DNA of 64,000 bases from Microvirga splendida (lineage in GTDB: Bacteria > Pseudomonadota > Alphaproteobacteria > Rhizobiales > Beijerinckiaceae): positions 248,001-312,000 of the forward strand of contig NZ_JAELXT010000001.1 of assembly GCF_016427565.1 (NCBI RefSeq), in the 5' to 3' direction. Below are positions 5,333-37,892 of this stretch, in pieces. The translations under genes and the position numbers were made by a program. Position 1 is the stretch's first letter. Each line of letters opens with the position of its first letter. Under the pieces are notes generated by a model. It worked only from the letters and a program-made list of their open reading frames with translations, ran no database searches and was not told where the DNA came from.

Positions 5333-5335
5333 GCG

Positions 5336-17847: not shown

Positions 17848-17871
17848 AACGAAAGGAGGTGATCCAGTGTC
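17848..17871 (+). repeat. Left attachment site (attL core) on a Shine-Dalgarno/GTG site
   Basis: This 24-bp core contains GAAAGGAGGTGATCCAG followed by TGTC. It equals the right copy at 37799-37822. The 17 bases quoted are the exact complement of the usual alphaproteobacterial 16S rRNA 3-prime tail, and a GTG start lies immediately after the ATCC. The upstream flank is chromosomal and the downstream side is island DNA. Confidence 0.8.
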
Positions 17872-17935
17872 ACACTCCTTTATTTTCAAAACCCCTTGTC
17901 TTACCGGGGGTTACGGCGGCTCTCCCTCTAATTGA
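17867..17935 (+). CDS. Chimeric mini-ORF created at the left island junction
   Basis: The GTG at 17867 sits 7 nt after AGGAGG and opens a 22-codon frame ending TGA at 17935 (VSHSFIFKTPCLTGGYGG at its start). The first two codons after the start come from the shared core or match the native mini-ORF; the rest is island sequence. It is probably a by-product of integration: the original mini-ORF continuation is now at the right junction (37818-37892). Whether any peptide is made is unknown. Confidence 0.35.
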   Translation: MSHSFIFKTPCLTGGYGGSPSN

Positions 17936-17945
17936 TTCTACGTTG
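17934..17945 (+). repeat. Candidate integrase/excisionase arm site, left copy
   Basis: The 12-mer GATTCTACGTTG here recurs in the same orientation at 37620-37631. In the excised circle one copy would lie on each side of the attachment core (63 bp to one side, 168 bp to the other), the layout expected of arm-type binding sites for a tyrosine integrase or its excisionase. It is inferred from the match alone. Confidence 0.4.
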
Positions 17946-18158
17946 GTACTTCGCTCAATAGATCAGCGAAAGACTGGCTTTGTCCTTAGCGACACTGCCA
18001 CTTGGCCTTTAGGACAGATGCTCCGGGCACATCGAGAATACCATCTCGAATACCGAAAGATCCATAAATCAATTCTCCATTTATGCGAACTTAAATATCG
18101 CCTTTTTGGCATCAACTCCGGCACAATAATCAGCATATTCTTTACGGATTTATTGCTG

Positions 18159-18389
18159 ATGAGTAATTCACCTTGGAAAAAACGATCTGAAGCGGCTGAT
18201 TACTTGCGCCGAAGCCCGAAAACGCTTGCGAATTGGGCATCCGAAGGACGTGGCCCACGCTTCACTCGGAAAGAAGGGCGTCCCCTCTATCATATCAACG
18301 ATCTCGATACTTGGGCCCGCAGCGGGAGCGATTCTGCCCTGCTTCAACAGCGTGGCCGCCCACTGGCTGTGGGGGGTCAGCATGGCTAA
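18159..18389 (+). CDS. Excisionase-like helix-turn-helix protein
   Basis: 76 residues. The N-terminal SPWKKRSEAADYLRRSPKTL and the following NWASEGRGPRFTRKEGRPLYHINDLDTW match the MerR-like HTH_17 fold used by phage excisionases and AlpA-type regulators. ATG 18159 puts this motif at the N-terminus. The gene overlaps the integrase start by 8 bp, a coupling typical of xis-int pairs. It probably sets recombination direction and/or controls the integrase. Confidence 0.75.
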   Translation: MSNSPWKKRSEAADYLRRSPKTLANWASEGRGPRFTRKEGRPLYHINDLDTWARSGSDSALLQQRGRPLAVGGQHG

Positions 18390-19725
18390 GTCTACGCCGC
18401 TGAAACTTACCTGCAACAAAGTTCGAACACTGACCTGCCCCGCAGGCGAACGCAGCATTAGTTACACTGACATCATGGGGAATCTCATCATTGTGATCTC
18501 CCCTCGGTCAAAGATTTGGCGGTATCGCTTTCGGTTTAACGGAGGCAACCCCGAGACTATCACGCTCGGGAAGTGGCCTAATATGAGCTATGAAGAAGCA
18601 AGAGCTAAGGTTGTCGAGTTCGAACGGGCACGCTCAGAGGGCCGCCATCCAAGGTCCATCTTGGCCCGTCCACGACGCGCGACGACCGTTGCGGACGTGC
18701 TTCAGCACCACCTCTTGACCCTGAAGCCCGACAATAGGAAAGGCGTAACGAACCTTTATCGTGAGATTCTGAAGGATCATGGAGCGACTGCGGTAACTGA
18801 CTTTACGCGGTATGTGGCGAAACGCTGGATTGAGGACAATTATGAGCATCGCAAAGGCGCGGCGCGTTCGCTGATCCGGAATTTGACGGCGGCATTCAAC
18901 AGGGCCATTGACTCGATCAGTGGGCTCGCAGTCCCGCCGGGATATGAAAACCCGACCTCGAAAATTTCCAAGCACATTTCATGGCTCGTTGAGCATAAAC
19001 CGGGCAGTCTCGCCGTGGCTTGGGAAGACCGCGAGTGGGAACAGGTTATGGCTGCGATCCAACATGGCTATGCCGATCCTGATACGCATGTGACAGGTCC
19101 AATGTGCCTTGAATTGCTGCTCCATACAGGCGCTCGCCCGTCTGAGATTCAGAGTTTGCGTTGGGACGAAATCGAGGACTTCCACACAGAAGGGAAGAAT
19201 TTCAGAATCGCAGTCAAGGATCGCCACAAAACATGGGCGAAGACCGACCGACCGCGACAGATCTTCTTCAGCGAGGAAGCAATGGCAGTCCTCGACAAGG
19301 CTGCCGCGTATCGTAACCAGACTGGCTACAACGGCCCCTATGTTTTTCCGTCGCGCCGCAGTCAAAAGAACCAGAAAGTGGGCTACGTCAGCCGCTTGAC
19401 TGCGCTGGCACACCGCCTCGGCAAAGCGGTTGGATTTGACTTCAAGCCTTATAACTTCCGGTCTGCATACATCAATCACGCGGTCCAGACGCTCGGATAT
19501 GGCAAACTCTCGGTGATTTCCGAGAACGTTGGCCACACCGAGGTAGCAACCACCCTTAAATACTACCATCGCCAAAGGGTCTCGGATCGCGCAGAGGCAG
19601 CGGAAGCTGTGGGAAGGGCATTCAAAAAGCTTTCCACCGCCACAACTGTCTCGGGGCTGTATAGTGCTCCCTTCACGGGAGCAAGTTCTCAGAACCCCGC
19701 TTTTGCACCTGACCTTCAGAGCTAA
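18382..19725 (+). CDS. int: Tyrosine recombinase/integrase of the island
   Basis: 447 residues. An N-terminal arm-binding domain (YRFRFNGGNPETITLGKWP, SYEEARAKVVEFERARSEGR) is followed by a core-binding SAM-like domain (about 100-200) and a catalytic domain. Box I is LLLHTGARPSEIQSLRW with Arg252. Box II reads YNFRSA, with Arg360 but Tyr357 where the usual His sits. The last motif is VGHTEVATTLKYYH with His385 and the nucleophile Tyr394 or Tyr395. ATG 18382 lies within the end of the HTH gene. It reads into the island from attL and presumably catalyses integration at the 24-bp core. Confidence 0.92.
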   Translation: MAKSTPLKLTCNKVRTLTCPAGERSISYTDIMGNLIIVISPRSKIWRYRFRFNGGNPETITLGKWPNMSYEEARAKVVEFERARSEGRHPRSILARPRRATTVADVLQHHLLTLKPDNRKGVTNLYREILKDHGATAVTDFTRYVAKRWIEDNYEHRKGAARSLIRNLTAAFNRAIDSISGLAVPPGYENPTSKISKHISWLVEHKPGSLAVAWEDREWEQVMAAIQHGYADPDTHVTGPMCLELLLHTGARPSEIQSLRWDEIEDFHTEGKNFRIAVKDRHKTWAKTDRPRQIFFSEEAMAVLDKAAAYRNQTGYNGPYVFPSRRSQKNQKVGYVSRLTALAHRLGKAVGFDFKPYNFRSAYINHAVQTLGYGKLSVISENVGHTEVATTLKYYHRQRVSDRAEAAEAVGRAFKKLSTATTVSGLYSAPFTGASSQNPAFAPDLQS

Positions 19726-19878
19726 CATCCTTCGATGTAGCCTAAAGCGGTAATAGAGACCCTTTCTATGGCAGGAGCGCCTATCGGAATTCTAACAAAA
19801 TGGTTCAAGTTCCATTCAGCCACGCTTTGTTTGAATGAAGCCAATAGGAATTTGGCGCTATCGGATTGGAGATCATAC

Positions 19879-20283
19879 ATGCGGAAGATTGCAACGCTGG
19901 CTGCCATCAGCGTCTTGGCTCTTGGAACCGTATCGGCGTCCAATGCCGAGGCACGGGATCGCAATTGGGTTGGCCCTGCTGTTGCGGCTGGCGTCGTCGG
20001 TGTTGCGGCGGGTGCCCTGCTTGCGAGTGCAGCCACTCCGGCCTACGCTTATCCGGCTTATGCTCCGGCATCTTATAGTTATGGCAGCTATTATGCCGCC
20101 CCGGCTTACCGCCCCTATCGCGTGAAGCGGATTGTCCGCTACTACGAGGAGCCCCGCCCGGTCTACCGCACTCGGCGCGTGGTTCGCTCCTATGACTACG
20201 GGTACGCTCCGGTGAGCACCCGTACTGTGACCTACAGCTACGGCTCTCCGTACTATGGGGGCGGCTACCACGGCGGATGGTAA
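19879..20283 (+). CDS. Small secreted Tyr/Pro/Ala-rich protein
   Basis: 134 residues. The signal peptide is MRKIATLAAISVLALGTVSA, probably cut after SNA. A glycine/alanine membrane-like segment (VAAGVVGVAAGALLAS) follows, then a low-complexity region of YPAYAPASYSYGSYY and arginine-tyrosine repeats ending in YYGGGYHGGW. Similar tyrosine-rich exported proteins are frequent in Rhizobiales and have no known function. ATG 19879 has TTGGAGA upstream. A hairpin with a T-run follows (20306-20335). Confidence 0.7.
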   Translation: MRKIATLAAISVLALGTVSASNAEARDRNWVGPAVAAGVVGVAAGALLASAATPAYAYPAYAPASYSYGSYYAAPAYRPYRVKRIVRYYEEPRPVYRTRRVVRSYDYGYAPVSTRTVTYSYGSPYYGGGYHGGW

Positions 20284-20305
20284 GCTGAACCAAATCCGGG
20301 AATCC

Positions 20306-20335
20306 AGAGGGCGGTCTTTATGACCACTCTTTTTG
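20306..20335 (+). terminator. Probable rho-independent terminator
   Basis: An imperfect stem (AGAG..GGTC pairing with GACC.CTCT) is followed by TTTTTG, 22 bp after the stop of the Tyr-rich secreted protein. It lies between this gene and the convergent OsmC gene. The stem has an internal loop, so the call is moderate. Confidence 0.45.
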
Positions 20336-20338
20336 TAA

Positions 20339-20791
20339 CTACATGACACCTCGAAATTCGCGATCTTTTAGACCCGGCACCGTTATCTGGCTGAAACCCT
20401 GACAGGAACTCCACGAGCGATTGAATTGCTCACGGTGGATGGTTGCCTTCGTGCGCTCAATAACGGCATCCAGATCGGCGTTCGCATCGGCAGCCTCAAT
20501 GGCCACCTGCATGTCAGCCGAAGTTGCAAGCAGCGGATCACCGTCGAATGTCACCGTTACATCGACTGCTACCGATGACAGCCGGATGCCCATCTCATGG
20601 GCGACATAGTAAAGGTCGTTGCAAAAGCACCCGCCAATTGCCACCCCAAGCAGTTGGCCGCCATTGAACCCTAGTCCTTGACCACCTGCCCTTCCCTCTG
20701 GCCGGTCAACGACCACAGAGTGAGCGCCTGCCCAACCAACCGACGCTTCGGTATCAGGAATGCCACGTAGTTTGACCGTCATTGTCGTCAT
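20339..20791 (-). CDS. OsmC/Ohr-family protein
   Basis: 150 residues. Family features are the beta-rich N-terminus and GGQLLGVAIGGCFCNDLYYVAHEMGI carrying the first conserved Cys. A second Cys occurs in SWSSCQGFSQIT near the C-terminus. OsmC/Ohr proteins reduce organic hydroperoxides using these two cysteines. ATG 20791 is preceded by GGGAGGG. It is downstream of the 62-aa ORF on the same strand. Here it is island cargo. Confidence 0.82.
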   Translation of the reverse strand: MTTMTVKLRGIPDTEASVGWAGAHSVVVDRPEGRAGGQGLGFNGGQLLGVAIGGCFCNDLYYVAHEMGIRLSSVAVDVTVTFDGDPLLATSADMQVAIEAADANADLDAVIERTKATIHREQFNRSWSSCQGFSQITVPGLKDREFRGVM

Positions 20792-20817
20792 ATAGCCCTC
20801 CCCTGTCTGCGCTAAGT

Positions 20818-21006
20818 CTAAGCCACCACGTCCTTGGCCACCGCAGCAGTCCATAGCCCCAAGATCACATCGGGATTGGTGATCCCCATGATTTCTTCGG
20901 TGGTCATGCCGATAGAGGTGCCGTACCGAAGCATCTTGGTACGGTCGTCTTCGAAGATTGCTTGGTCAGCCCAATCAGGGCGAGCATCGATCAAGGCGCT
21001 CATCAT
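20818..21006 (-). CDS. Hypothetical 62-residue protein
   Basis: The short ORF (MMSALIDARPDWADQAI at the start) reads in the same direction as OsmC and ends 27 bp before it. No family is recognised. The composition is protein-like (acidic N-terminal half, TTEEIMGITNPDVILGLW in the second half) and it could be the C-terminal remnant of a longer enzyme. The ribosome site is weak; ATG 21003 is an alternative start. Confidence 0.45.
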   Translation of the reverse strand: MMSALIDARPDWADQAIFEDDRTKMLRYGTSIGMTTEEIMGITNPDVILGLWTAAVAKDVVA

Positions 21007-21204
21007 TCGCTAAACCCGATGCGAATGCGATTGGCTGAACATCACGGCCCTCCATGTGCGATGTTGATGTTCCCAACCGATGCCAGAGATTATAAAATGA
21101 ACGGTGAACCGAAGACTCGATGCAAAATGCGGCACATAGGGGTGCGACGGTCTTCGAGATCTATGGACCCGATGCTTGCCCAAAAGCTGCGAGACGGCGC
21201 ATGC

Positions 21205-22965
21205 TCATTCTGGAATTCCTGCGAGCTTTAGCGCCTCAAGAAACCGTTCAAACATGGCCTTGTCACGGTAGTGGGATCGTCGCGAACGAGTGATTGAGGT
21301 GTTCGGCTGCACTTCTAGCAGTTTTGAAGCGACCGCTCTCGCTTCATCTAATCGGTCGAGGAAGACGAGGGCAGCGGTATGGTATCGGAGTGAAACTGGA
21401 TGTGAGGGCATTCTTTCCAGTGTGCGTCGCGCCCACAGTTCCGCTTCTTCAAAGCGGCCAGAAAACAGGTAAGCGGCAGTCGTCCCACTGTTTATGAGGT
21501 GTACCCGAGGGTCGATGGGGCTCATGCGCCGCGCTGTATCCAGCAAGCTCAATGCCCTTTCATACTCGCCAATATGCACGAAGACCCACCCACAGTTTGT
21601 GCAGACGAAGGCGGAATTTGGATGTAATCGCAGGGCATTGTTGGCGAGGTCTGCTGCCTCGTCGAAATGCCCAACGAGGCCAGCGAGTGTAAAGGCTGCG
21701 ATTGAAAGGGCAGTCCCATTGGCATTGTCGGCTCCAATTGCCCGATGCGCCGCTTCACACGCCTGCTCTGACCCGTAGCTCCAATCCGCAATCCAGCCTC
21801 CGACCGTCATTCGAGCCAAACAATCTGATAATGCGGCCCATGCCGCTGAGAACTCTGGATCACGCTCAACTGCCTTGCGAAGCAGGGCTTCGGCGTGGCG
21901 AAATCCGGCCTCTGTGTATGAATGGAAGTCTGGCAGTGCTCGGAGATAAAGATCATAGGCCGCGAGGCTTTCGGTTGGCTTGGCACGGGCACGGGCGATT
22001 TCTGCTGTCAGCAACGTTGGTTCAATAGCGGATACGACAGCGCGTGTGATCTCGTCTTGGAGGTCAAAAATATCCTCTATTTCGCGGTCGAAGCGATCAG
22101 CCCATATGTGGGCTCCGGTCGCGACCTCAATAAGCTGGCCTGTAATCCGTACTCTTTTGCCAGCACGACGGATTGAGCCCTCAAGCACGTACCGAACACC
22201 GAGAACCCGCCCAACCTCCTTTACGTCTATCGCCTGTCCTTTGAACGTGAAGCTGGAATTTCTCGCAATCACGAAGAGCCAGCGGGTACGAGATAAGGCC
22301 GTCAACAGGTCGTCTGTGATACCGTCTGCAAAGTATTCCTGCTCCGGGTCGCCGCTCATGTTCGTGAACGGCAAGACGGCAATAGAGGGTCGGTCGGGCA
22401 GCGGGAGGGCTCTACGGAGCACCTCAGCACTTGTTGTTCCGTCCGAGCACCGTCCAATGGCAAAGACCCGAATTGGCCTGTCGATGTTCTTCACCTCCTG
22501 CTCACCCATGTCCTCAAAGACATAAGGCAGTTTGCCCCGGACCTCCTCGTGGACCTTACTGGAAATCAATATGCTTCCGGGCTCGGCAATCTGCTCCAAG
22601 CGGGCCGCGATATTCACCCCGTCCCCGAACACATCTCCGTCACTTTCAATGATGATGTCGCCAAGATTGATACCGATACGGAGCTTTAGAGCTTGGCCAT
22701 TATCCTGAGTGCCTTCGACCCTCAGCGCGTCCTGAATGGCAATGGCGCATTCGACGGCCCCTGTTGGGCTTGGGAATTCCACGAGGAACCCATCTCCTGT
22801 GGTCTTGACGATCCGCCCACCCTGCTCGGCTACATGGGGCTCAACCACCTCGGCTCGCAGGCTCTTGATGCGGGCAAGAGTCTCCTCTTCGCTCTGGCTC
22901 ATTAGTCGTGAGAATCCGACCACATCAGCCGCAAGGATGGCCGCAAGCCGTCGTTGGACCTTCAT
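21205..22965 (-). CDS. Class III adenylate/guanylate cyclase with TolB-like and TPR domains
   Basis: 586 residues. The cyclase domain occupies about 1-170: LAAILAADVVGFSRLM contains a metal-binding Asp (D14), KTTGDGFLVEFPS the second (D58), and FGDGVNIAARLEQ follows. Then comes a TolB/FlgO-like segment (SIAVLPFTNMSGDPEQEYFADG, about 195-330) and a TPR array to the C-terminus (repeated A-x-L/A-x3-P patterns). This architecture is common and multi-copy in Rhizobiales. It probably makes cAMP in response to a protein-bound signal. No membrane segment is seen. Confidence 0.88.
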   Translation of the reverse strand: MKVQRRLAAILAADVVGFSRLMSQSEEETLARIKSLRAEVVEPHVAEQGGRIVKTTGDGFLVEFPSPTGAVECAIAIQDALRVEGTQDNGQALKLRIGINLGDIIIESDGDVFGDGVNIAARLEQIAEPGSILISSKVHEEVRGKLPYVFEDMGEQEVKNIDRPIRVFAIGRCSDGTTSAEVLRRALPLPDRPSIAVLPFTNMSGDPEQEYFADGITDDLLTALSRTRWLFVIARNSSFTFKGQAIDVKEVGRVLGVRYVLEGSIRRAGKRVRITGQLIEVATGAHIWADRFDREIEDIFDLQDEITRAVVSAIEPTLLTAEIARARAKPTESLAAYDLYLRALPDFHSYTEAGFRHAEALLRKAVERDPEFSAAWAALSDCLARMTVGGWIADWSYGSEQACEAAHRAIGADNANGTALSIAAFTLAGLVGHFDEAADLANNALRLHPNSAFVCTNCGWVFVHIGEYERALSLLDTARRMSPIDPRVHLINSGTTAAYLFSGRFEEAELWARRTLERMPSHPVSLRYHTAALVFLDRLDEARAVASKLLEVQPNTSITRSRRSHYRDKAMFERFLEALKLAGIPE

Positions 22966-23261
22966 TGGAGTGCCCTAAACCACAAAAGCAATTGTGCAAC
23001 GGAGTTGCCGCTTCGTCCACGGCAAAACTGTCATCGTCGGGTTTGATATGGTGAGGGAGGCGATCCAAAGGCGGTAGCTTCCGGCGGGTCCTCGATAGCG
23101 GCCCACCAGATGGCCAACACTACGTCTTTGTCCGAAAGCAGATGCACACGACCCTGACCGTGTGAGAACGGCGAAGTATTCAGAAAGCCGTCTCACACAA
23201 GTTGTCTCTTGATTTTTAAGGCCAAGTCTCCCATAGTTGTCTCACATGGTCAGGGGGCAAC
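22966..23261. promoter_or_regulatory. Gap with three TGTGAGA motifs; candidate res site of the serine recombinase
   Basis: Between the divergent cyclase and recombinase genes, TGTGAGAACGGC (23161-23172) faces GCCGTCTCACA (23188-23198) as an inverted pair. A third copy TTGTCTCACATGG lies at 23238-23250, 12 bp before the recombinase start. Serine resolvases often bind several inverted half-sites directly upstream of their own gene, where they also repress it. The remainder of the gap shows nothing recognisable. Confidence 0.4.
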
Positions 23262-23840
23262 ATGCTGATTGGGCTGGCACGCACTAGCACTGACGAACAA
23301 AAGGCTGGCCTCGAAGCACAGGTCGAAACGCTCCGCGCGCTTGGTGTCAATGAGGACCACCTGTTTGTTGAGGAGGCCAGTTCGGTTGGGAAGCGGCCTG
23401 TCTTGGAGGAGGTGCTGAGGTTCTGCCGCAAGGGCGATACGCTCATTGTCACGTCCCTCTCCCGGCTTGCTAGATCCGTTCCCCACCTATGGGAGATCGT
23501 GCAAAGCCTTGAGAAGAAGGGTGTCGCCCTCCGAATCCTCGATTTGGACATCGACACGAGCACCCCGAATGGACGCTTGATGATGACGCTCGTTGGCGGC
23601 ATCGTTCAGTGGGAACGCGAGATCATGCTGGAGCGCCAGAGGGTCGGGATTGCCAAGGCGCGCAAGGAGGGGAAGTTCCGTGGACGTGTACCCACCGCCC
23701 GTCGTCAGAGCACCGAAGTTGCAAAGCTCAAGGCGGAGGGCATCGCGCCGACTGATATCGCCAAGCGGCTCAAGATCAGCCGAGCGTCGGTCTACCGTAT
23801 CCTGAGCGAGACCGGCCCGTGCGAAACTGAGGCTCGGTAA
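23262..23840 (+). CDS. Serine recombinase (resolvase/invertase family)
   Basis: 192 residues. The catalytic serine is Ser9 in GLARTSTDEQ. FVEEASSVGKRPVLEEVLRF, TLIVTSLSRLARSVPHLWEI and NGRLMMTLVGGIVQWEREIMLERQRVGI are the rest of the catalytic domain and the long E-helix. The C-terminal HTH reads GIAPTDIAKRLKISRASVYRIL. The size matches DNA invertases and Tn3-type resolvases. It is alone, without a transposase gene; repeats just upstream may be its site. Confidence 0.92.
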   Translation: MLIGLARTSTDEQKAGLEAQVETLRALGVNEDHLFVEEASSVGKRPVLEEVLRFCRKGDTLIVTSLSRLARSVPHLWEIVQSLEKKGVALRILDLDIDTSTPNGRLMMTLVGGIVQWEREIMLERQRVGIAKARKEGKFRGRVPTARRQSTEVAKLKAEGIAPTDIAKRLKISRASVYRILSETGPCETEAR

Positions 23841-23863
23841 GGTCGAGTTGTAAGCTGTCGAGC

Positions 23864-24148
23864 CTATCGCCTGTGCGCCACCGGAGGTGTCATCACGCTC
23901 CGGTCGATCCTCACCAGCGTCTCGACCTTTGACGACACCTTGTCCGGGAGGCTGTCACCCCCACCGTTGGGGATGTCTAAGCGTTTAGCAAGGAAGTCGA
24001 TCTCAGCGGCGGTTACTGGATGCCCATGCCCTTGGAGCATTTCCGCCAGATCTTCAGGGAGCACATCAATCTGCTCTTGCAGGAGGAGAAGGGCTGCTCG
24101 GAGGGTACTCAACTCACGTTCGTCGAAGACAAGTGTGAGGGTCTTCAT
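23864..24148 (-). CDS. Hypothetical 94-residue protein
   Basis: A short protein with a predicted helical middle (ERELSTLRAALLLLQEQIDVLPEDLAEML). No family is recognised. ATG 24148 is chosen since AAGGA lies just upstream; the open frame extends to 24292 with no better start. It converges on the serine recombinase gene with 23 bp between stops. Function unknown. Confidence 0.5.
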   Translation of the reverse strand: MKTLTLVFDERELSTLRAALLLLQEQIDVLPEDLAEMLQGHGHPVTAAEIDFLAKRLDIPNGGGDSLPDKVSSKVETLVRIDRSVMTPPVAHRR

Positions 24149-24546
24149 CTGATCCTTCATCCATAAGAATGGTCCGCTCAGGCTAACCGGACGTTTGGCA
24201 GAATCAAGGCAATCGGAGCACATTGAAACTATGTTGCCATGGCGCACCAAGTGCCTTCCACGGACCGAATGGCCCGAAGAAGGTCGCACCATTCCTCAAA
24301 CATGATCATGCTGTATTGTGCCGACGAGAAGATAATCCAGCGGATGCTGTCCACATTCGGTCGCGTCCACCTTCCAAAGGCGGCGGCGATTGGCCGGGCG
24401 ACTAATGACCCAGAGCCACTCACCGCCCATGAGTTGGTTGCTGCTGATTAAAAGGGCACAAGGATGAGTTGCGTAGTCCGAGGGATCTCCAGCAATCTCG
24501 ACAACATGGCGTCAGCAATATTAGAACAAGCGCGGACGATCTTAGC
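24149..24546. other. Gap with no convincing gene
   Basis: Several overlapping open frames of 60-75 codons occur on both strands, none with a good start site or recognisable domain. I see no tRNA, terminator or repeat here. It may contain degraded sequence. Confidence 0.4.
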
Positions 24547-24918
24547 TCATCGACAGGCATCTACCTGCTGAGGGAAGCCATTTCCATTGAACTCGATCCT
24601 CTTTTTCTTCCCAAAGTATGCAGTGAAACTTGGCCCACTGTTATTAGTTGTTCCACTCACGACGTAATGCCCGCTCTCTACCCGCACATCTTTAACCGAA
24701 TATGGCGTCTCGCCCTCTTCTACTTTCGCGACGAAAGTGCGTGACGCAGGTGTAAACACCACGGAATACTCCCGACGAATATTCCGACACGTCATTTGCA
24801 GCTTGGAGGCTGGTTGGGCAGCGGCCGCTGTCGTTCCTACTGTGAACGAAGACGTTGAAGTAAAGGCCGAGGCTGAGACGGTTAATAGGATGTATGTTAG
24901 GGCTTTTCTGCGAGCCAT
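24547..24918 (-). CDS. Secreted hypothetical protein
   Basis: 123 residues. The signal peptide MARRKALTYILLTVSASAF continues through TSTSSFTVGTTAAAA, with a probable cut after AAA. The mature domain (QMTCRNIRREYSVVFTPASRTFVAKVEEGETPY) is beta-rich and has two cysteines that could form a disulphide. ATG 24918 has GGAAGA upstream. It lies next to two more exported proteins on the same strand. Function unknown. Confidence 0.65.
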   Translation of the reverse strand: MARRKALTYILLTVSASAFTSTSSFTVGTTAAAAQPASKLQMTCRNIRREYSVVFTPASRTFVAKVEEGETPYSVKDVRVESGHYVVSGTTNNSGPSFTAYFGKKKRIEFNGNGFPQQVDACR

Positions 24919-25095
24919 CGTTGATCTTCCACTCTTGAAGAGGCGCATTTTCTTAGGCAGTCGTTGCAGATCGATGCGGCCTGCAAGACCTGTTATCATT
25001 ATCTTGAGTATGATGACGCATGGATACCTTTTCCCATGCGCGAGATCAGGCATGATGTGGCATATATATTATTGAATACGCGAAGGATTTCGGTT

Positions 25096-29929: not shown

Positions 29930-29948
29930 CGCCGCTCCGACGAAGGTT

Positions 29949-29981
29949 AGAAGGCCGCTATCTCTGAGCGGCCTTCTTTTT
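29949..29981 (+). terminator. Rho-independent terminator of the MucR-like gene
   Basis: A perfect 11-bp stem AGAAGGCCGCT / AGCGGCCTTCT with a 7-nt loop is followed by TTTTTGG, 19 bp after the stop codon. Confidence 0.85.
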
Positions 29982-30269
29982 GGATAGGGCACCGCGAGCA
30001 CTATGGAAGGAACCTGAGCGGCACCAGCAGAACTTTGGCCTGATTGCAGAGGCGATGTCGAATACAGCTATTTTGGCTGGAAGTACGAGGTCTTGCCCTC
30101 CTGACCGTGTTTGGGGTCAGGGGGCATCCATAGTGACAAAACTTCTTGATCCAAAATGTAGGGCTGCCAGCCCTAACTATGAGCCGATCTGCATGGGGAG
30201 CCCGTCCGAGGCCAAAACGGGCAGCGATCACCTTGGATAAATAGCCCAAACATCTGTCCAAGGATCACC

Positions 30270-30581
30270 ATGCGCTACCGCGACTTCGCTCCCAACCAAA
30301 CCTCCACCTATAAGAAGCGTCTTCGAACCGTGACCCTCTGCGTCCTTGATGACGCTGAATGGGCTCTCCTGACCAAGATCCGAGAGGCCACAGGTCCGAG
30401 CCGGATTATTGGCGTGAGATCCCTCGCTCCACGATTTCAGGGCTTCTCCGTCGAGATCGTCTGCAAGGATATCAATGCGGCTTGGGAGTTATTCGCGAAC
30501 TGGCATGACAACTCCATTCGGGAGGTCTGCCAAGCCGCAATACAGGATGAGGTCCAGCATTCAGCAGCCCAGACCCACTAA
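30270..30581 (+). CDS. Hypothetical 103-residue protein
   Basis: ATG 30270 is preceded by AAGGAT. The sequence begins MRYRDFAPNQTSTYKKRLRT and continues with a possible alpha/beta core (VTLCVLDDAEWALLTKIREA, FSVEIVCKDINAAWELFANW). No family is recognised. The region 29982-30269 before it holds no gene. Confidence 0.5.
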   Translation: MRYRDFAPNQTSTYKKRLRTVTLCVLDDAEWALLTKIREATGPSRIIGVRSLAPRFQGFSVEIVCKDINAAWELFANWHDNSIREVCQAAIQDEVQHSAAQTH

Positions 30582-30730
30582 AGTGGCACGGCCCGTGTAA
30601 GCCTTACGCAACTTTCTGCGACCTAATCTCACATTCAGAAGACAGTCCTATTGTAGTCAGTCCATCTTGCCACTGAGCGGCTTTCTGCGAGAGAAGCAAA
30701 ATAACACTAGGTCTATCGGGGCAGCCCTGA

Positions 30731-33214
30731 ATGAAACGACGTAGCGCAAGCGAACCCAACTCTCCGTCAGTGGGAGCACGCCAGCCTGCCGGGAGGGATC
30801 GAGACTGGAAAGCCATTGCCGAGATCATCCCACAAATGGTTTGGTTGGCGCAGCCCGATGGCGGCAACGACTATTACAGCGGTCGCTGGTATGAATTCAC
30901 AGGCGTTCCCGTTGGCGTTGCTCACGAGGACGGCTGGAGAGAGGTGGCGCACCCTGACGACCGCAGCCGGGTAGAGGCCCGATGGGAGCACTCCGTCACA
31001 ACCGGGGAAAAATTTGAAACGGAGTATCGCATTCGCCATCGTTCCGGCGAGTATCGGTGGATTCTGAGCCAAGCCGCACCGTCCTATGACGATCACGGCA
31101 GGATCGAGCGGTGGTTCGGCACCAGCACGGACATCCATGCGGCTAAGATGACTGAAGCGGCACTGGCGCGGAGTGAAGAGCAGTATCGTGCGCTTCTTGA
31201 GGTCAGCGCCGGGGTCGTATGGCTCGCCACGCCAGACGGAATGATCACTGAGGCAAGAGGCTGGAAAGACTTTACCGGACAGGACGAGGATAAAGCTGTT
31301 GGGTTGGGCACTCTCAACGTCGTCCACCTCGATGACAGGGAGAGGACCCGACAAGCGTGGTTGGCAGCCGTAGCGTCTGCTGTCCCTTATCAGCATGAGT
31401 GTCGTGTGTGGCACGCCAGCGGTGAGTACCGCTGGACGCTGAACAGCGCCGTACCCATCAAGAACCCCGATGGTTCGATCCGTGAATGGATTGGCACCCT
31501 GAGCGACATCCACGAACGTAAGCAGGCCGAGGAACAACTCCGTGCCAGCGAGGAACGACTCCGGCTTGCTTTACAGGTCGGAAGAATGTCGGCATGGGAG
31601 CTAGACCTCGAAACCGGCGAGATTTCGAGTGCCAAGAACCTGCCCGACTTGCTTGGGCATTCACCCCGCTCCCTTTCCGGCTTTCTGGAGAGGGTCCACC
31701 CCGATGACCTGCACAAGCGGGAGGCGTTCTTCCGCGAGATTGCGGCGCAAGGCGCAAGCAGCATTGAGCTTCGTTACCTCTTACCGAGCAATCAAGTGCA
31801 ATGGGTTGGTATTCGCGCCGAGAAGCGTGGGCCAAGTCAGATCGTTGGCGTCACCTTCGATATCAGCGAGCGCAAGGCGGCAGAGGAAGAGATCTGGCGC
31901 GCTGCCAACCACGATCCGCTGACGGGGCTCCCTAATCGTGCCCTGTTCCAGCAGCGTCTGGAGCAGGCACTAGCCGAGGCCAAGCGCAGTGAAACGAGCG
32001 TGAGCTTCCTCATGCTCGATCTGGACGAGTTCAAGGTGATCAATGACCTCCTTGGCCATGATGCAGGTGACGCGGTGCTGCGAGAGGTCGCGAGCCGTCT
32101 GGAGGGCATTACCCGTCAGTGCGATACTGTTGCACGGTTTGGAGGCGATGAGTTCGGGATCATTCTAGTCGAGCCGATGCGGCTTGAGCATTCGATCAGA
32201 TATGCAGAGCGGGTGATTAAGCGCCTGCGGCAGCCGTTCTCCTATACAGGCCGGAAGCTAATCATCAAAGGCAGCATCGGCGTCACGGCCTTCCCTGATC
32301 ACCACGCTGACCCGATGGCTTTGATGAAGGCAGCCGACATCGCCCTCTATCGGGCTAAGGCTCAAGGCCGCAACAGGGTCGTGGTCTACACATCGGAGAT
32401 GGGGCAAGACATCGAAGATCAGGCTGCTCTCAGGCAGCAGGTGCGGAAGGCGCTCTTGCGAGAGCAGTTCCTGCCGCACTACCAGCCCAAGATCGATCTC
32501 GCCTCTGGGAGGATCGTTGGATTCGAGGCGCTTGCGCGATGGGAGAATCCTAGCCGAGGCATCCTGACGCCAGCCGCTTTCAGCGCAGCGTTCGCTGATC
32601 CGGAGCTTGGGGTAGCCCTTGGCAAGCAGATCATCAGTCGAGCCGCACAAGATATGCGGCAATGGCTCGATAACGGCATCGACTTCGGGCGCGTCGCTGT
32701 CAACCTCTCATCGGCAGAGTTCAACCGTCCTCACCTTGCGGAGGAAGTTCTGAGCCTCTTGGATGCTGCGAAAGTCCCGCCGGAGCGGCTGGAGGTGGAA
32801 ATCACCGAGACGGTCCTGCTCGGCAGAAGCGCGGAGTATGCCGGGACAATCCTCCGGACGCTTTGCGAACGAGGGGTGCGGATCGCCCTTGACGACTTCG
32901 GCACCGGCTATGCCTCACTGACCCACCTCAAGCAGTTTCCGGTCGATCACGTCAAAATCGACCGAAGCTTCGTTCGGGACTTGGAGGAGGATGCCGACGA
33001 TGCGGCAATCGTCGCAGCGGTCATCAGCCTCGGTCACAGCCTCAACCTCGCGATCACCGCCGAAGGCGTCGAAACACCCGGTCAGGCCCTGCGGCTGCGC
33101 GCTCTAGGTTGCCACCATGCCCAAGGCTTCCTCTATTCACAGGCCGTGACGGCTTCCGAGGTGCCGGAGTTCATCGCCAGTTGGAGCAATTGGGAGACGA
33201 AAAGCTCTGGCTGA
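30731..33214 (+). CDS. PAS-GGDEF-EAL cyclic-di-GMP protein
   Basis: 827 residues. Three PAS/PAC domains occupy about 20-385 (each with a WR/HxxDR and a GTxxDI(T/H)E-like end). The GGDEF domain has an intact GGDEF motif at 471-475 (VARFGGDEFGIIL), and the EAL motif at 599-601 lies in VGFEALARWENP, with a full DDFGTGYASL loop later. Both active sites look intact, so it could make or degrade c-di-GMP; which dominates is unknown. No membrane segments. It is convergent with the methyltransferase gene. Confidence 0.93.
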   Translation: MKRRSASEPNSPSVGARQPAGRDRDWKAIAEIIPQMVWLAQPDGGNDYYSGRWYEFTGVPVGVAHEDGWREVAHPDDRSRVEARWEHSVTTGEKFETEYRIRHRSGEYRWILSQAAPSYDDHGRIERWFGTSTDIHAAKMTEAALARSEEQYRALLEVSAGVVWLATPDGMITEARGWKDFTGQDEDKAVGLGTLNVVHLDDRERTRQAWLAAVASAVPYQHECRVWHASGEYRWTLNSAVPIKNPDGSIREWIGTLSDIHERKQAEEQLRASEERLRLALQVGRMSAWELDLETGEISSAKNLPDLLGHSPRSLSGFLERVHPDDLHKREAFFREIAAQGASSIELRYLLPSNQVQWVGIRAEKRGPSQIVGVTFDISERKAAEEEIWRAANHDPLTGLPNRALFQQRLEQALAEAKRSETSVSFLMLDLDEFKVINDLLGHDAGDAVLREVASRLEGITRQCDTVARFGGDEFGIILVEPMRLEHSIRYAERVIKRLRQPFSYTGRKLIIKGSIGVTAFPDHHADPMALMKAADIALYRAKAQGRNRVVVYTSEMGQDIEDQAALRQQVRKALLREQFLPHYQPKIDLASGRIVGFEALARWENPSRGILTPAAFSAAFADPELGVALGKQIISRAAQDMRQWLDNGIDFGRVAVNLSSAEFNRPHLAEEVLSLLDAAKVPPERLEVEITETVLLGRSAEYAGTILRTLCERGVRIALDDFGTGYASLTHLKQFPVDHVKIDRSFVRDLEEDADDAAIVAAVISLGHSLNLAITAEGVETPGQALRLRALGCHHAQGFLYSQAVTASEVPEFIASWSNWETKSSG

Positions 33215-33285
33215 TCGATAGGGTCTTACGGACCATCTTCATCACGGACGGACGTAGCTCCCGCTCTACACGGGCAGCGGGAAGC

Positions 33286-34491
33286 TTATGATGCAATCCG
33301 CTCAAGATCGGGTGGAGGCTCTGCGCCATTCTCCTTACGCAACCTCTCCAAACGGGCCTTGGCGATCTCGTGGTAACGCTGGTTGGCCTCGACACTGATG
33401 AATCCACGGCCATTCTGGTAGGCCGCAGCAGCGGTCGTGCCGGAGCCGCCAAAGGGATCAAGCACAACGGCACCGGGGCTGCTACAGGCTCGGACGATCC
33501 TCTCGATCATTGGCAGGGGAAACTGCGCTGGATGGTCCGTCTTGTCCTTTGACGCAGTTCTCCCACCCACCACACGGTCAAAGTACCAATAGTCGGTCGG
33601 GTTCTTTCCGGCAGGATTGTTCCTCTGATCGTTCGACCGATTGAGGGTGCCGTCGCGGACATCATCAAGGTGGAACACGTAATTGGCCGGATCTTTCACC
33701 AACCACATCCACCGCTCGGTGCGGTGAGCAAACCTCTTGGAGTAGGCTAACCCGCCCTCGAAGTGCCAGACGACCTCTTGGATGAGGTGCAACCCGTGCC
33801 GAGCGAGAAGCGGATAGTAGAGATATGTCAGCGGAACGGCCTGACCAACTTCTGGTCTGAAATAGCCGACATTGAGCCAAAGCGCGCCCGTGGGACTTAG
33901 GAGCCGTGGTATGGAGGACACCCACCGTTCTGCAAAGTTCAGGTACTCCTCGACCGAAAGATCAGCCTCATACTCCTTACCAGCATTATAGGGAGGGCTG
34001 GTCACGATAAGATCCACAGACCTGCTTTCCATGCCGTGCATGAAGTCGATGCAGTCGGCATGCACCAATCTCTGGACCGTTGAATGGCCCATCCCGCGCG
34101 GTGCTTCCCTCCTGATCGTTGCAGGCTTCCGGACGCGCGCAGTCGGGGCCAATGCGGCTATGGCAGCCTCAAGGCTGGCAATGCGCCCCTTGCCCTGTTC
34201 CAGCCCACGGATCGTGGGGATCGAGAGGTTGCTCCGCTCCGACAGTTTCTGGAGTGACCATCGCTTTTTTAACCGAGCCTCTTGGACGCGGGCACCTAGA
34301 CTGCTGGCTGGCGAAAGGCCAGCAATCGGTATCCGAAGGTGGTCGAGGATGGGGATCAGGGTCTTGAGCGTTCCCGCTCCTTGTTCGGCCAGCCATACGG
34401 CACGGGGTGTCACACCGATGGTTTGGGCCAACTCCTCTTGAGAGAGGATTGCGCGCTGACGCGCATCTCGGATTGCGGGGGCAAATTTCAT
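33286..34491 (-). CDS. Solitary DNA methyltransferase with two N-terminal HTH domains
   Basis: 401 residues. Residues 4-58 (IRDARQRAILSQEELAQTIG) and about 66-117 (VQEARLKKRWSLQKLSERSN) are two XRE-type HTH domains. The methyltransferase part has catalytic motif IV TSPPYN at 164-169 before the SAM-binding motif DPFGGSGTTAAAA near 350, the beta-class order (N6-adenine or N4-cytosine). No restriction endonuclease gene is next to it. HTH-methyltransferase fusions are known to repress their own genes. Two short palindromes directly precede its ATG (34502-34517 and 34519-34534). Confidence 0.9.
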   Translation of the reverse strand: MKFAPAIRDARQRAILSQEELAQTIGVTPRAVWLAEQGAGTLKTLIPILDHLRIPIAGLSPASSLGARVQEARLKKRWSLQKLSERSNLSIPTIRGLEQGKGRIASLEAAIAALAPTARVRKPATIRREAPRGMGHSTVQRLVHADCIDFMHGMESRSVDLIVTSPPYNAGKEYEADLSVEEYLNFAERWVSSIPRLLSPTGALWLNVGYFRPEVGQAVPLTYLYYPLLARHGLHLIQEVVWHFEGGLAYSKRFAHRTERWMWLVKDPANYVFHLDDVRDGTLNRSNDQRNNPAGKNPTDYWYFDRVVGGRTASKDKTDHPAQFPLPMIERIVRACSSPGAVVLDPFGGSGTTAAAAYQNGRGFISVEANQRYHEIAKARLERLRKENGAEPPPDLERIAS

Positions 34492-34501
34492 GAAAGGAAT
34501 C

Positions 34502-34534
34502 GACAGGAGAGACTGTCTGAACCTTTCATGGTTC
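34502..34534 (-). promoter_or_regulatory. Two tandem palindromes before the methyltransferase start
   Basis: GACAG/CTGTC (34502-34506 and 34513-34517) and GAACC/GGTTC (34519-34523 and 34530-34534), each with a 6-nt spacer, lie back to back 11 bp upstream of the ATG. They could be operators for the two HTH domains of the encoded protein or RNA hairpins over the ribosome site. Confidence 0.45.
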
Positions 34535-34620
34535 GGTGGTAGAACTCAAGGGAAACATTCTGCTCCAAGAGTTCACACAGGTCGAGAATCCACCCTCGCC
34601 AGAAACGCACGATGAAAGCG

Positions 34621-35238
34621 TTAAAACAGCGTTGGCATCGGCTCTCGGCACACTTGAGCCACCCTCCGCATAGAGACTGTCGCTCCACCGTACCGGAAGC
34701 GAAGACTTCGGAAATCCTGAAGGCTGAGGTGCCATTGGCTGCTGGCTGTGAGGGCTTGGCCAACCATGATCCTTGCAAGGGCCGGAAGGTCGATGCGGCC
34801 TACCACTGACCCGACCTCGATCTGATCGGGCTTGTCCCACGTCCTTGTCATGGCCTCACGGACATCCGCCTGACCAAGCAGTGGTCCGATACGCACGATG
34901 GCGTGAGCGGTGATCTCGAACCTTCCAGCCCCCTCCTCCACTGCTATCCAGCCCCAGATCGCCGCACTGAACCACCACCGGGAAAGCTGACGACACAGGT
35001 TGAAGCGGTTGCGGAGGTCGGAACGGAACTGCGTAATTGCACCCTGAGCATTCGCGGTGGCACCCAACCTGATTGTGACCGGTACGAATCGGCAATCAGG
35101 AGCATCAAACCCCTTCAGCACGGCGCGACACTCCCGCCGGATCTGACGCTTTCGACAGCGATCACAGCCGGGACTGCCACAGCGATAGCGGCCATTCCAG
35201 CCAACCCCGCAGTCGAGAGCTTCAGGTGTCACGGCCAC
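34621..35238 (-). CDS. Hypothetical protein with a Cys-rich N-terminus (Rep-like)
   Basis: 205 residues. YRCGSPGCDRCRKRQIRREC near the N-terminus contains a CxxxxCxxC cluster that could bind zinc, resembling the start of some rolling-circle replication initiators. RWWFSAAIWGWIAVEEGAGR and EITAHAIVRIGPLL resemble the WGxxE...H region of such proteins but lack the HxH pair. I treat it as an unknown, possibly derived from a replication protein. The start is GTG 35238 overlapping the previous gene by 10 bp. Confidence 0.5.
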   Translation of the reverse strand: MAVTPEALDCGVGWNGRYRCGSPGCDRCRKRQIRRECRAVLKGFDAPDCRFVPVTIRLGATANAQGAITQFRSDLRNRFNLCRQLSRWWFSAAIWGWIAVEEGAGRFEITAHAIVRIGPLLGQADVREAMTRTWDKPDQIEVGSVVGRIDLPALARIMVGQALTASSQWHLSLQDFRSLRFRYGGATVSMRRVAQVCREPMPTLF

Positions 35239-35576
35239 AGAGCTTTTTCGAACCGGCGTAGGTCCGAAGCGGACTGGAATTCTATGGCCACCATATCGAT
35301 CAAGTCGCCGCTATGTGGGTTCTCATTTATCCAGTCTTGAACCTCGTCCGAGACCGGAACGATCATCAGGAAAACGTCAGGATCGGCAGCAGGCCAGCGT
35401 TGTGCGTCGTTGAAGTGTAGGAGGAAGTAAATTGCATCCCTCTCACTGGCGCACACGAGCCCCACGAGGCTTGTAGGCTCGATGAATGTCGCTTCTGACG
35501 GGAGACCTGCCCGTTCGGCAAGTTCGCAGGCGTAGTTCAGAGGCACTGGATAAATTGCGGAAGGCTTGGGGAGCAT
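35229..35576 (-). CDS. Hypothetical 115-residue protein
   Basis: MLPKPSAIYPVPLNYACELA begins a short globular protein with a mixed alpha/beta pattern (ERDAIYFLLHFNDAQRW and FLMIVPVSDEVQDWINE). No family recognised. It belongs to the minus-strand run from 36950 to 33286. Confidence 0.5.
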   Translation of the reverse strand: MLPKPSAIYPVPLNYACELAERAGLPSEATFIEPTSLVGLVCASERDAIYFLLHFNDAQRWPAADPDVFLMIVPVSDEVQDWINENPHSGDLIDMVAIEFQSASDLRRFEKALWP

Positions 35577-35662
35577 CAGATAAACCCTTTTATGAGGTAT
35601 TTATCTGATGCTCTGGATAGCGACTTCTCCCAAAGGGCGAGGCATAGAACTAGCTTCGCGTA

Positions 35663-35980
35663 TCAGCGCCGACGTTGTGCGACCGGCCTTCCCTTCGGAA
35701 CCTCATCGAAATTCTTGAGATAGGGTTCCGCAGATTTACGCCAAATCCGCTCGAACTGCTCGACACCCCAAATCATGAGATAGGCTTCTTCCGGCGACGG
35801 CATGATATTCAGGCTGCGATCACGGCGCTCTGCTGCCATTTCGGTTGCCTCTTGAAGAGTAGGAAGCATCTGCTTCCGCAGACGCTCCCAGATCTCTTCG
35901 TGCCGGTCCAATCGAGCCTCAAGGGCTGTGATCTGCTCCGTCAGGGCAGTGATAATCTCAAGGATCTCTTCGCTCATCAT
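35663..35980 (-). CDS. Hypothetical coiled-coil protein
   Basis: 105 residues beginning MMSEEILEIITALTEQITAL, a heptad-like helix continuing EARLDRHEEIWERLRKQMLP. The C-terminus is basic (PKGRPVAQRRR). ATG 35980 overlaps the stop of the upstream gene (ATGA), so it is translationally coupled. A larger open frame reaches 36076 but overlaps that gene much more. Function unknown. Confidence 0.55.
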   Translation of the reverse strand: MMSEEILEIITALTEQITALEARLDRHEEIWERLRKQMLPTLQEATEMAAERRDRSLNIMPSPEEAYLMIWGVEQFERIWRKSAEPYLKNFDEVPKGRPVAQRRR

Positions 35981-36294
35981 CGCCGCCCTCCTGTCAGGTC
36001 TTTGAGTGCATGATGGAGAGCGACACCTGACAGCATCCTCGACGGATGTTCGTCCTGCATATGGCGCTGAAACCATCCCCTAAGCTCGTCAACGTCCTTT
36101 GCAAGAGCTTCGGAGACTGCACTCACTGTGCCGTCTGGATCTACAACGGTAGGACGGGCCTTAGCCCCGTTTTCAAGGGCTGCCACACGGTCCAGCGCAT
36201 CTTCAAGGGCAGCCGTCAGAATCTCGTTATCTTTTGAAAGCTGCTCCACCTGATCAATGAGGGAGAAGAGGACTTGGAGAACTTGGTCACTCAT
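35977..36294 (-). CDS. Hypothetical coiled-coil protein
   Basis: 105 residues. The N-terminal half MSDQVLQVLFSLIDQVEQLS to DRVAALENG is a predicted coiled coil; the C-terminal part is WFQRHMQDEHPSRMLSGVAL. Both its start and stop overlap neighbours by 4 bp (ATGA). Its architecture resembles the next protein downstream, so the two may pair. Function unknown. Confidence 0.55.
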   Translation of the reverse strand: MSDQVLQVLFSLIDQVEQLSKDNEILTAALEDALDRVAALENGAKARPTVVDPDGTVSAVSEALAKDVDELRGWFQRHMQDEHPSRMLSGVALHHALKDLTGGRR

Positions 36295-36950
36295 TGGAGC
36301 TTACCCTTTTTCAAGGAAGCTCCTCGGCCCTTCCAAAGACCCAACGGATTGTAACGAGCCCGAATGATTGGCAGCTTCTTGTCAGGCGCAGGCTTGACCT
36401 CTTCCCATGCAATGATGGTGGGCAGCATCGCGTCCAAGTGGACCTCAAGGTTCGCCCCTTCGAACTGATCGTACCAGAAGCGCAGGAAGTAAGGCCATGA
36501 GTAGTTGGTGCCACACCTCTTGTCGGTGAACGTCCCCATCAAAGCATTGTCGGGATATTCATGAACAGTCCTCTTGTACTGTTCCTTGAGGTAATGATGG
36601 GTAACGATGTCGATCTTTCCCTCGCTAGCCTTGTGGTCCACATACGACATCCAGAAACCCGGATCGTGCAATTGAACCGTACCAGACCAAGCAGACAATG
36701 CTGGTGACGGCGTAAATGCCTGTGTCTGAGTGAAAAACTGCACGTTCATCGCATAGCGAGCGGATGACCACTTCCCCTTGTGACCCTTGCCGTTGTCATA
36801 GTGATTGAACGTGGCAACGGTAATAAGAATCGCCGGAGGGATGTCGTTGAGGCTAACCACCTGAGAAGAGTCAATAAGCGTATCCTGCTGGATTTGAACA
36901 GTGTTGGCGGACACAAGCGCGTCTCGCATATTATCAAAAATACCTGCCAT
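36291..36950 (-). CDS. Hypothetical 219-residue protein, first gene of an unknown operon
   Basis: MAGIFDNMRDALVSANTVQI begins a protein rich in aromatic residues (FFTQTQAFTPSPALSAWSG, DPGFWMSYVDHKASEGKIDI) and polar beta-like segments. The C-terminus is basic (GLWKGRGASLKKGKLQ). ATG 36950 and ATG 36956 are both possible. It is the first of three genes joined by ATGA overlaps. It could be a structural or binding protein; no family is recognised. Confidence 0.55.
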   Translation of the reverse strand: MAGIFDNMRDALVSANTVQIQQDTLIDSSQVVSLNDIPPAILITVATFNHYDNGKGHKGKWSSARYAMNVQFFTQTQAFTPSPALSAWSGTVQLHDPGFWMSYVDHKASEGKIDIVTHHYLKEQYKRTVHEYPDNALMGTFTDKRCGTNYSWPYFLRFWYDQFEGANLEVHLDAMLPTIIAWEEVKPAPDKKLPIIRARYNPLGLWKGRGASLKKGKLQ

Positions 36951-37619
36951 AAACATTCTCTATAAAAATACATAAATATAAAAATATCGATCAGATATTT
37001 CTTAATGATCGATGCTTTATTTAAGCATAATACAGAGTATTTTTCAATTTATATTATTAGTAAATCTAGTCTATACGCAGTGACCGCTCCGCCTTATCGC
37101 TGATTTCTGCAACGTGTATTGAACAATCTATAAGCAACAATGTATAAAAAGTAATTATAATGAGATTTAGGACATCTCAGGCAAATCACATCGGCTGCGC
37201 CTCATTCCTCGCTTCGCTCGGACAATTAACTGAGGTCGCATTCGCTCCTCATGCCAAAGGATAAGGGCAAGTGGTCGTCTTCCTCATAACCGGGACAAGA
37301 AGATCAAAAAGGGGAAACCTGCGAGACGACGCCGTGCCCTTGATCCGCATGCCCCACCCGCACCCTGTTACGAACTCTCGCTGCTCACACAGCCAAGAAC
37401 CCTTCACTACCGATTCAATTGTTGCGCTTGATCGTGACTGTCGGGTGGTTGCGGCGCTTGGATGGCAGTGAAATTAGATACAGAGGGTCGGGCTTCAAAA
37501 GCGAAGCAACGCTGTCTCGGTTGCGATCATGTCGCAACACGTCTGTACCTTCTCGCCTATGGGGGTTTGGTCGCGAGCGCCACCAGCATGAACCCGACGA
37601 GGCAAGAATGCGTAGATGA

Positions 37620-37631
37620 GATTCTACGTTG
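37620..37631 (+). repeat. Candidate integrase/excisionase arm site, right copy
   Basis: GATTCTACGTTG, identical to 17934-17945 at the other end of the island. A partial second copy (GCTACGTTT) follows at 37634. Position 168 bp before the attR core is compatible with an arm site. Confidence 0.4.
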
Positions 37632-37640
37632 ATGCTACGT

Positions 37641-37680
37641 TTGTCGGGATTAGACGGGAATGGACGGGATCAATCGGGAA
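37641..37680 (+). repeat. Four tandem ten-base units with CGGGA at fixed spacing
   Basis: Four consecutive 10-mers each end CGGGAT or CGGGAA (TTGTCGGGAT, TAGACGGGAA, TGGACGGGAT, CAATCGGGAA). The ten-base spacing puts each CGGGA on the same face of the helix, as expected for cooperative binding of a recombination or replication protein near the attachment site. Confidence 0.5.
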
Positions 37681-37798
37681 CCACAATTCCACCAGCCCAA
37701 CCGTGTGACAGCCTGCCACATCGTTGAATTGAAAGGAAAACTCTTGTCACTGTTGAACTTCGGGTCATCGCTCCCACATTTGGTATTCCCGTTCAACA

Positions 37799-37822
37799 AA
37801 CGAAAGGAGGTGATCCAGTGTC
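37799..37822 (+). repeat. Right attachment site (attR core)
   Basis: Exact copy of 17848-17871, preceded by near-identical bases (ttcccgt, then CAACA with single-base indels). The upstream side is island DNA, the downstream side chromosomal. Because the core ends just after a GTG start, the island brings its own ribosome site and start for the mini-ORF at 37818. Confidence 0.8.
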
Positions 37823-37892
37823 TCATTGTCATACCCTACGGTCCCCGGTTGCCGTGACCTGGATCTTGGCCTCTGCCGAGATTGGTGCGTAA
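37818..37892 (+). CDS. 24-codon mini-ORF with a maximal Shine-Dalgarno (integration target)
   Basis: GTG 37818 begins a 24-residue frame ending TAA at 37892 (MSHCHTLRSPVAV at its start). The ribosome site GAAAGGAGGTGATCCAG is complementary to 17 bases of the 16S tail, with 7 nt from AGGAGG to GTG. After excision the native locus would read this frame from the chromosomal upstream region at 17747. It may be a leader peptide or a conserved microprotein; not recognised. Confidence 0.5.
   Translation: MSHCHTLRSPVAVTWILASAEIGA

Follow-up and report, generated by a model that had tools for sequence, protein, structure and literature searches.

The attachment site of an integrating element (attP) usually holds a replacement sequence for the gene that the element enters (PMC10111431). 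Replacement of the 5' end of the target is a known form of this strategy: integrative and conjugative elements of the SXT/R391 type enter at the 5' end of prfC, other integrative elements are specific for dusA (PMC8409611, PMC2791158, PMC3715440), and restoration of the 5' end together with a promoter has been published for the dusA elements and for SXT at prfC (PMC8409611). Here we describe an island of about 20 kb in Microvirga splendida that probably entered the chromosome in a comparable way at another target, a small RNA gene of the CC2171 family (RF01867), whose extended Shine-Dalgarno (SD) sequence forms the core of the attachment (att) site. The island lies in a stretch of 64,000 nucleotides (assembly GCF_016427565.1, contig NZ_JAELXT010000001.1, positions 248,001 to 312,000), hereafter the window, to which coordinates refer unless another contig or locus is named.

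Small mRNAs of the rreB/rreR type carry at least 16 nt complementary to the 3' end of 16S ribosomal RNA (rRNA), followed by a short open reading frame (ORF); their transcripts are bound by ribosomes and weakly translated. They were reportedly described by Hahn et al. in 2017 as extended-SD small mRNAs. We take the CC2171 gene of this locus to be of the same type: 17 of 17 bases are complementary to the 16S 3' end and 24 codons follow. An earlier note on this DNA had proposed that an island is attached at the maximal SD site of a 24-codon mini-ORF and re-supplies the start of that frame.

Results

The island and its attachment sites

The 17-mer GAAAGGAGGTGATCCAG occurs at 17851-17867 and 37802-37818, both times on the + strand. 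These are the only two copies in the window, where no third match was found at up to 3 mismatches (0.08 expected), and the only exact copies in the whole assembly. The 17 bases are part of a common block of 24 bp, a perfect direct repeat whose left copy, attL (17848..17871, +), and right copy, attR (37799..37822, +), match exactly; attR carries the extended SD and a GTG, and identity between the copies ends after GTGTC. Two 16S gene ends from congeners confirm that the core is reverse-complementary to the 3' end of 16S rRNA. In the own assembly the 16S copy of the core was not found by a 3-mismatch search, and the frame after a third near-match (contig 16, 9566-9586) does not resemble the family. 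Between the repeats, across 18-38 kb, GC content is 0.50-0.61 in 1-kb windows; outside the island it is mostly 0.62-0.70, with extremes of 0.574 and 0.729. The island is a segment of about 20 kb with low GC, bounded by perfect 24-bp direct repeats, and it combines a pair of att repeats with an empty site in relatives and an integrase of its own near one end.

The earlier note's account of the repeat is borne out in most respects. Seventeen bases complementary to the 16S tail are present in two copies where it had placed them; the repeat lies outside any transfer RNA (tRNA) gene, ARAGORN finding none in the window, and the att pair is thus not that of an island in a tRNA or transfer-messenger RNA (tmRNA) gene. 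The repeat is not a high-copy element either, there being one copy per genome besides the 16S ends and a few weaker matches. Attachment at the maximal SD of a mini-ORF agrees with the 24-bp att pair and with a GTG that starts on the last base of the 17-mer. Its coordinates were correct save for the right border: the island ends at the right repeat (37822), and 37823-37892 is chromosomal.

Empty sites in relatives

An uninterrupted site in relatives, which the note had called for, is found throughout the genus. Joining our own flanks over the repeat gives a sequence with 97.3% identity to M. lupini AT3.9 (L095) across 476 bp, with a single gap. The joint is spanned in a single alignment by 53 of the 68 loci given, in which genomes may recur; the other 15 are four loci of two occupied genomes and eleven more distant loci. 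When 16S ends are disregarded, each of the 47 other Microvirga genomes has one site copy within 2 mismatches, and in 45 of them the start of prfC is 98-233 bp away. The two exceptions are G481 (4,299 bp) and G582 (3,928 bp); G582, judging by identical prfC coordinates, is the M. arvi genome, also labelled G576. Named Microvirga loci agree, with prfC 99-110 bp from the site in 24 of 25 (among 29 loci), the exception again being M. arvi. In the window, prfC (peptide chain release factor 3; 16163..17746, -; NCBIfam NF001964, 744.5 bits) forms the left chromosomal flank. On the right lies a deacylase-like gene (38080..39201, -; a weak NCBIfam DoeB match of 19.5 bits, far below the cut-off), which adjoins the empty site in most congeners looked at.

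The target gene

The gene rebuilt across the right junction is a CC2171 RNA gene (37794..38071, +; Rfam RF01867, 78.6 bits over the full model, positions 1-159 of 159; gathering cut-off 75 bits). It begins just 5' of the repeat and continues through the extended SD, the GTG and 24 codons to a terminator-like hairpin at its 3' end (38045-38074; 1 found against 1.1 expected by chance). The mini-ORF VSHCHTLRSPVAVTWILASAEIGA (37818..37892, +) has the same or a near-same frame in Microvirga relatives. What the earlier note had found at the junction is thus a real 24-codon frame, although not a new one, since it belongs to the CC2171 gene. Between its stop and the terminator lies an extra repeat-like segment (~37893-38010), which lengthens the RF01867 match to 278 nt on the 159-position model; M. 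flocculans (L073), M. guangxiensis (L091) and locus L118 show similar starts at the corresponding position.

The site is widespread. An exact 19-mer including the GTG is present in 54 of 297 genomes of the order, in single copy except in our own genome, which has two. At up to 1 mismatch, an 18-mer is found in 98 of 199 genomes of the family, with more than one copy in G398 (two), G436 (two) and our own (three); the second copy in G398 precedes a five-codon frame. All 48 Microvirga genomes have a site copy.

The length of the frame appears clearly conserved: 103 of 110 distinct sequences have their first in-frame stop at codons 20-27, against 2 and 11 in the other two frames. These sequences come from the fetched loci, many being close relatives; six loci had been set aside beforehand, namely our own left copy and prfC loci (L001, L019, L033 and L154) and two near-matches (L075 and L077). 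The peptide seems at most weakly conserved. Variable columns are distributed 8/8/8 over the three codon positions in 17 distinct Microvirga frames, and single synonymous and non-synonymous changes stand at 260:403 against 55.7:151.3 possible, a mild synonymous lean among non-independent pairs. Of the 'conserved leader peptide' that had been suggested, the frame length holds and the peptide hardly does.

The re-supplied front end

The promoter position weight matrix (PWM), built from 59 dissimilar native upstream regions and seeded from the sigma-70 consensus, converged on TTGCCA/TATATT, mostly 19-22 nt 5' of the core. By this model the predicted native promoter of the small gene is stranded at attL (17804..17831, +; TTTCGC-16-CATATG); its score of 10.5 compares with a native lower quartile of 10.0 and a median of 12.8, and it resembles the upstream regions of empty sites. 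A second predicted promoter lies in the right end of the island (37753..37780, +; TTGAAC-16-CACATT) and scores 12.7. Two other Microvirga genomes with an insert at the same point, M. arvi and G481, give right-end scores of 13.7 and 11.6. Of island 60-mers, 0.14% attain the right-end score of the window, 0% that of M. arvi and 0.46% that of G481. At the left end, the native front runs into the island as a 22-codon hybrid frame (17867..17935, +; from translation), which after VSH is unlike the family peptides. It is well supported by these sequence features that the right end of the island would re-supply promoter, leader, SD and GTG, so that a full gene is rebuilt at attR. Judged by sequence only, the element supplies both the promoter and the start region of its target, and the native-grade promoter upholds the earlier note's claim of a re-supplied front end.

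Inserts at the same site in two congeners

M. arvi BT689 and G481 carry inserts of ~3.8 and 4.2 kb at the same point as the island (M. arvi L122, ~2755-6553; G481 L086:905-4690). Both contain a frame of 986-1263 codons, with a peptidoglycan-binding domain in G481, and the window integrase has no match in either. Over an aligned 2,370 bp the two inserts are 77.9% identical; ~620 bp of this length belongs to the flank beyond the site. Their left site copies are degraded and the right ones show 0 mismatches, a pattern that selection acting on the rebuilt gene alone would be expected to leave. In a prfC tree of 30 sequences, read irrespective of branch support, the two genomes stand on separate branches; their left junctions share bases, and one event with later transfer is therefore possible. 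Among 113 upstream regions, these two are the most similar to the right end in the window, although weakly.

The integration module and cargo

Beside attL lie two overlapping frames, an excisionase-like protein (HTH_17; 18162..18389, +; PF12728 32.8 bits, phrog_66 5.3e-07) and a tyrosine integrase of 447 aa with an Arm-DNA-bind_3 domain (18382..19725, +; PF00589 51.4 and PF13356 43.9 bits, phrog_1 1.1e-40); no NCBIfam model reached its cut-off. Plasmids and phages yielded only matches of 23-25% to the integrase (4 and 1 records). The 12-bp word GATTCTACGTTG at 17934..17945 (+) recurs exactly at 37620-37631, where it forms, with the near copy GATGCTACGTTT beginning at 37631, a pair at 37620..37642 (+). 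We infer that the words at 17934, 37620 and 37631 are candidate arm-type integrase sites.

The remaining cargo (19768..37600) comprises an OsmC-like protein, an adenylate cyclase with TPR repeats, a serine resolvase, a ROS/MUCR-like regulator, a PAS-GGDEF-EAL protein, a DNA methyltransferase with helix-turn-helix (HTH) regions and unmatched frames; no conjugation, transfer or capsid genes were recognised among the island frames scanned. The adenylate/guanylate cyclase with TPR repeats (21205-22965) has a weak PADLOC match to a Pycsar cyclase (best 1.9e-09). The methyltransferase (33286-34491) has two N-terminal HTH regions, and no restriction partner was found among the neighbouring frames scanned.

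A prophage in the same gene

Searching viral contigs for the core returned 5 loci, or 6 with a shorter pattern. At locus L195, a tyrosine integrase of 418 aa ends ~200 bp after the site; its Pfam match of 21.3 is below the 27.1-bit cut-off, and a 96% relative matches the phrog_1 integrase at 3.6e-15. Among 111 genomes of another genus of the family, that relative occurs in one, G389, and there too it adjoins the site. Here a prophage of 36.8 kb (contig 27, ~54.1-90.9 kb; L205-L207) lies inside a CC2171-type gene, with the 10-bp repeat CTCATTGTCA. The small gene is split, its left half reading GTGTCTCATTGTCA and then passing into the element and its right half resuming at CTCATTGTCATCAGCCG 36.8 kb on, and it is uninterrupted in relatives such as L015. 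Matches to terminase, head-tail adaptor, major head protein, tail fibre and endolysin suggest a podovirus-like prophage.

The first base of the 10-bp repeat is also the final base of the sequence corresponding to the 24 bp of the window, and the gene is split just downstream of the window's site. The G389 integrase does not align with that of the window (best E 1.1). In G389 the native promoter and SD remain at the front of the gene, which runs into a 33-codon frame of the element; a hairpin follows this frame, and a canonical terminator was not called. No SD lies close to the native tail. One gene thus holds two unrelated integrases at adjacent crossover sites, with opposite ends replaced, the front in the window and the back in G389. 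With three Microvirga inserts and the G389 prophage in the same gene, the CC2171-type gene is a recurrent, and apparently unreported, attachment target.

Other candidate loci

On a viral contig of 9.9 kb, a large serine recombinase (Resolvase, Recombinase and zinc-ribbon domains; L197:7906-9776) starts ~140 bp before an extended-SD site that is intact and lies at the contig end; the contig holds one junction only. This recombinase was found in 0 of 397 family genomes in a scan flagged as uninformative, and as a lead it may be a third unrelated user of the site. At rreB-type (14-codon) loci on two viral contigs (L193, L196), a tRNA-Gly gene adjoins the small gene; those prophages may therefore well use the tRNA, and two att targets may lie side by side. 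Three candidates for an integrase at the site (G198, G158 and G076), taken from the PF00589 matches listed for 48 site-bearing genomes outside the family, were rejected, no second site copy being found within 6 mismatches in the fetched pieces; G198 is syntenic with two relatives on both sides. Locus L198 was also set aside, its site lying inside a long frame and looking like chance.

Discussion

The explanation that we favour, with a probability of roughly 0.87, is site-specific recombination in which an integrative element of some 20 kb used its tyrosine integrase to insert at a 24-bp attB within the 5' end of a CC2171/rreB-type gene, the gene being rebuilt at attR. After crossover, the native promoter and leader would remain at attL, and the gene body would follow another promoter, leader, SD and GTG brought by the right end of the element, giving a full gene at attR. 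The island's own integrase presumably carried out the insertion, and the rebuilt gene is probably expressed. The native promoter may read into xis-int, since no intrinsic terminator was called between attL and xis (0.8 expected by chance); in the excised circle, the element's right-end promoter would read into the same genes. The site would be a good target because the core must stay complementary to the 16S 3' end.

Several observations weigh against this account or parts of it. The integrase has no close relative: at 1e-40 it is found in 1 of 397 order genomes, namely its own, at 1e-8 in 3 of 199 family genomes (itself and two at 25-28%), and none was confirmed in scans of genome and viral contigs, scans that may omit near records. 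Nothing therefore shows this integrase using the site elsewhere. The arm-type word is not rare at 2 mismatches, 31 of 100 shuffles having as many. The attL leader folds strongly (z -3.4), so that attenuation before xis-int is possible. The RF01867 match is only just above its cut-off, which 10 of the 20 relatives searched reach and 10 do not. The likeness of our right end to those of M. arvi and G481 is weak: it scores 72 and 67, where shuffles average 49.5 and reach 68 at most, and in either comparison 1 of 300 shuffles attained the local alignment score. Finally, a strict consensus scan found no promoter at either island end, including 37400-38100.

This last result is also what would be expected if integration breaks the gene, the right-end promoter being inactive and the gene shut off or placed under the control of the element, a case of regulated gene integrity. 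The G389 locus, with its front fused to a foreign frame and its tail lacking a nearby SD, lends some colour to this idea. In Microvirga, however, the three right-end promoters fit the native model at the native distance, and in M. arvi and G481 the right copy is intact and the left decayed, so that we regard a broken gene as unlikely. Considerably less probable is that selection on two extended-SD gene copies flanking unrelated DNA, and not an att pair, accounts for the 24-bp identity. The core is constrained by 16S complementarity, and any two copies would look alike. Yet the family gene body is present only at the right copy, identity ends after GTGTC, the integrase sits at the left copy and each of the 47 congeners has a single copy; moreover, the left upstream and right downstream sequences form the 97.3% match to M. 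lupini, an empty site that already contradicts this reading. That the 5' region of prfC is the true target, as in SXT/R391, and the small gene incidental, is scarcely credible: the prfC start is only ~105 bp away, but prfC itself has an unbroken frame and does not contain the repeat. The crossover block falls within the CC2171 gene, which serves as the target in the genus of G389 as well, although the 3-kb loci of four relatives (L015-L018) contain no prfC.

Beyond entry of the island through its integrase, a wider proposition can be put forward tentatively, at somewhat less than even odds. The extended-SD small gene could be a general docking site for mobile DNA in Alphaproteobacteria, on which unrelated recombinases (those of the island, of the G389 prophage and perhaps of L197) have settled. 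Hosts could not mutate the core away, because it must mirror the 16S 3' end. Replacement of the front or the back would bring a ribosome-bound small mRNA under the control of the element, while the stranded host promoter would drive xis-int. An attachment gene of this kind, held in place by the ribosome's own sequence and entered by two unrelated integrases, would be new. The empty and occupied sites, with front or back replaced, also amount to natural experiments on a poorly understood small mRNA, whose function they make testable.

Comparison with known systems

The gene shares with CC2171 (RF01867) and with rreB/rreR genes the 17-nt complementarity to the 16S 3' end, the GTG, the short frame and the occurrence in Alphaproteobacteria; what differs from these genes as known is the presence of unrelated integrases inside the gene in two genera. 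Literature searches found no paper on an integrase at CC2171 or at an extended SD, or on CC2171 as an integration target. The target is new as far as these searches go; the strategy of restoring a 5' end is itself known. With the SXT/R391 and dusA elements, as described in the articles cited above, the island shares integrase-driven entry at the 5' end of a gene and the supply of a new promoter and start. It differs from them in its target, neither prfC nor dusA but a small-mRNA or small RNA (sRNA) gene within which the repeat lies, in an att core that is an extended SD, in its size of 20 kb and in the lack of recognised transfer genes among its scanned frames. The earlier note had set the island apart from islands in tRNA genes, which restore the 3' end. 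This contrast is right but was drawn too strongly, restoration of 5' ends being known from SXT at prfC and from dusA elements (PMC8409611). Like islands in tRNA, tmRNA and sRNA genes, the present element uses a short conserved RNA gene as its att site, and the gene is rebuilt after insertion; whereas those islands restore the 3' end, the island of the window rebuilds the front end, with a promoter, and the G389 prophage stands closer to the 3'-replacing kind.

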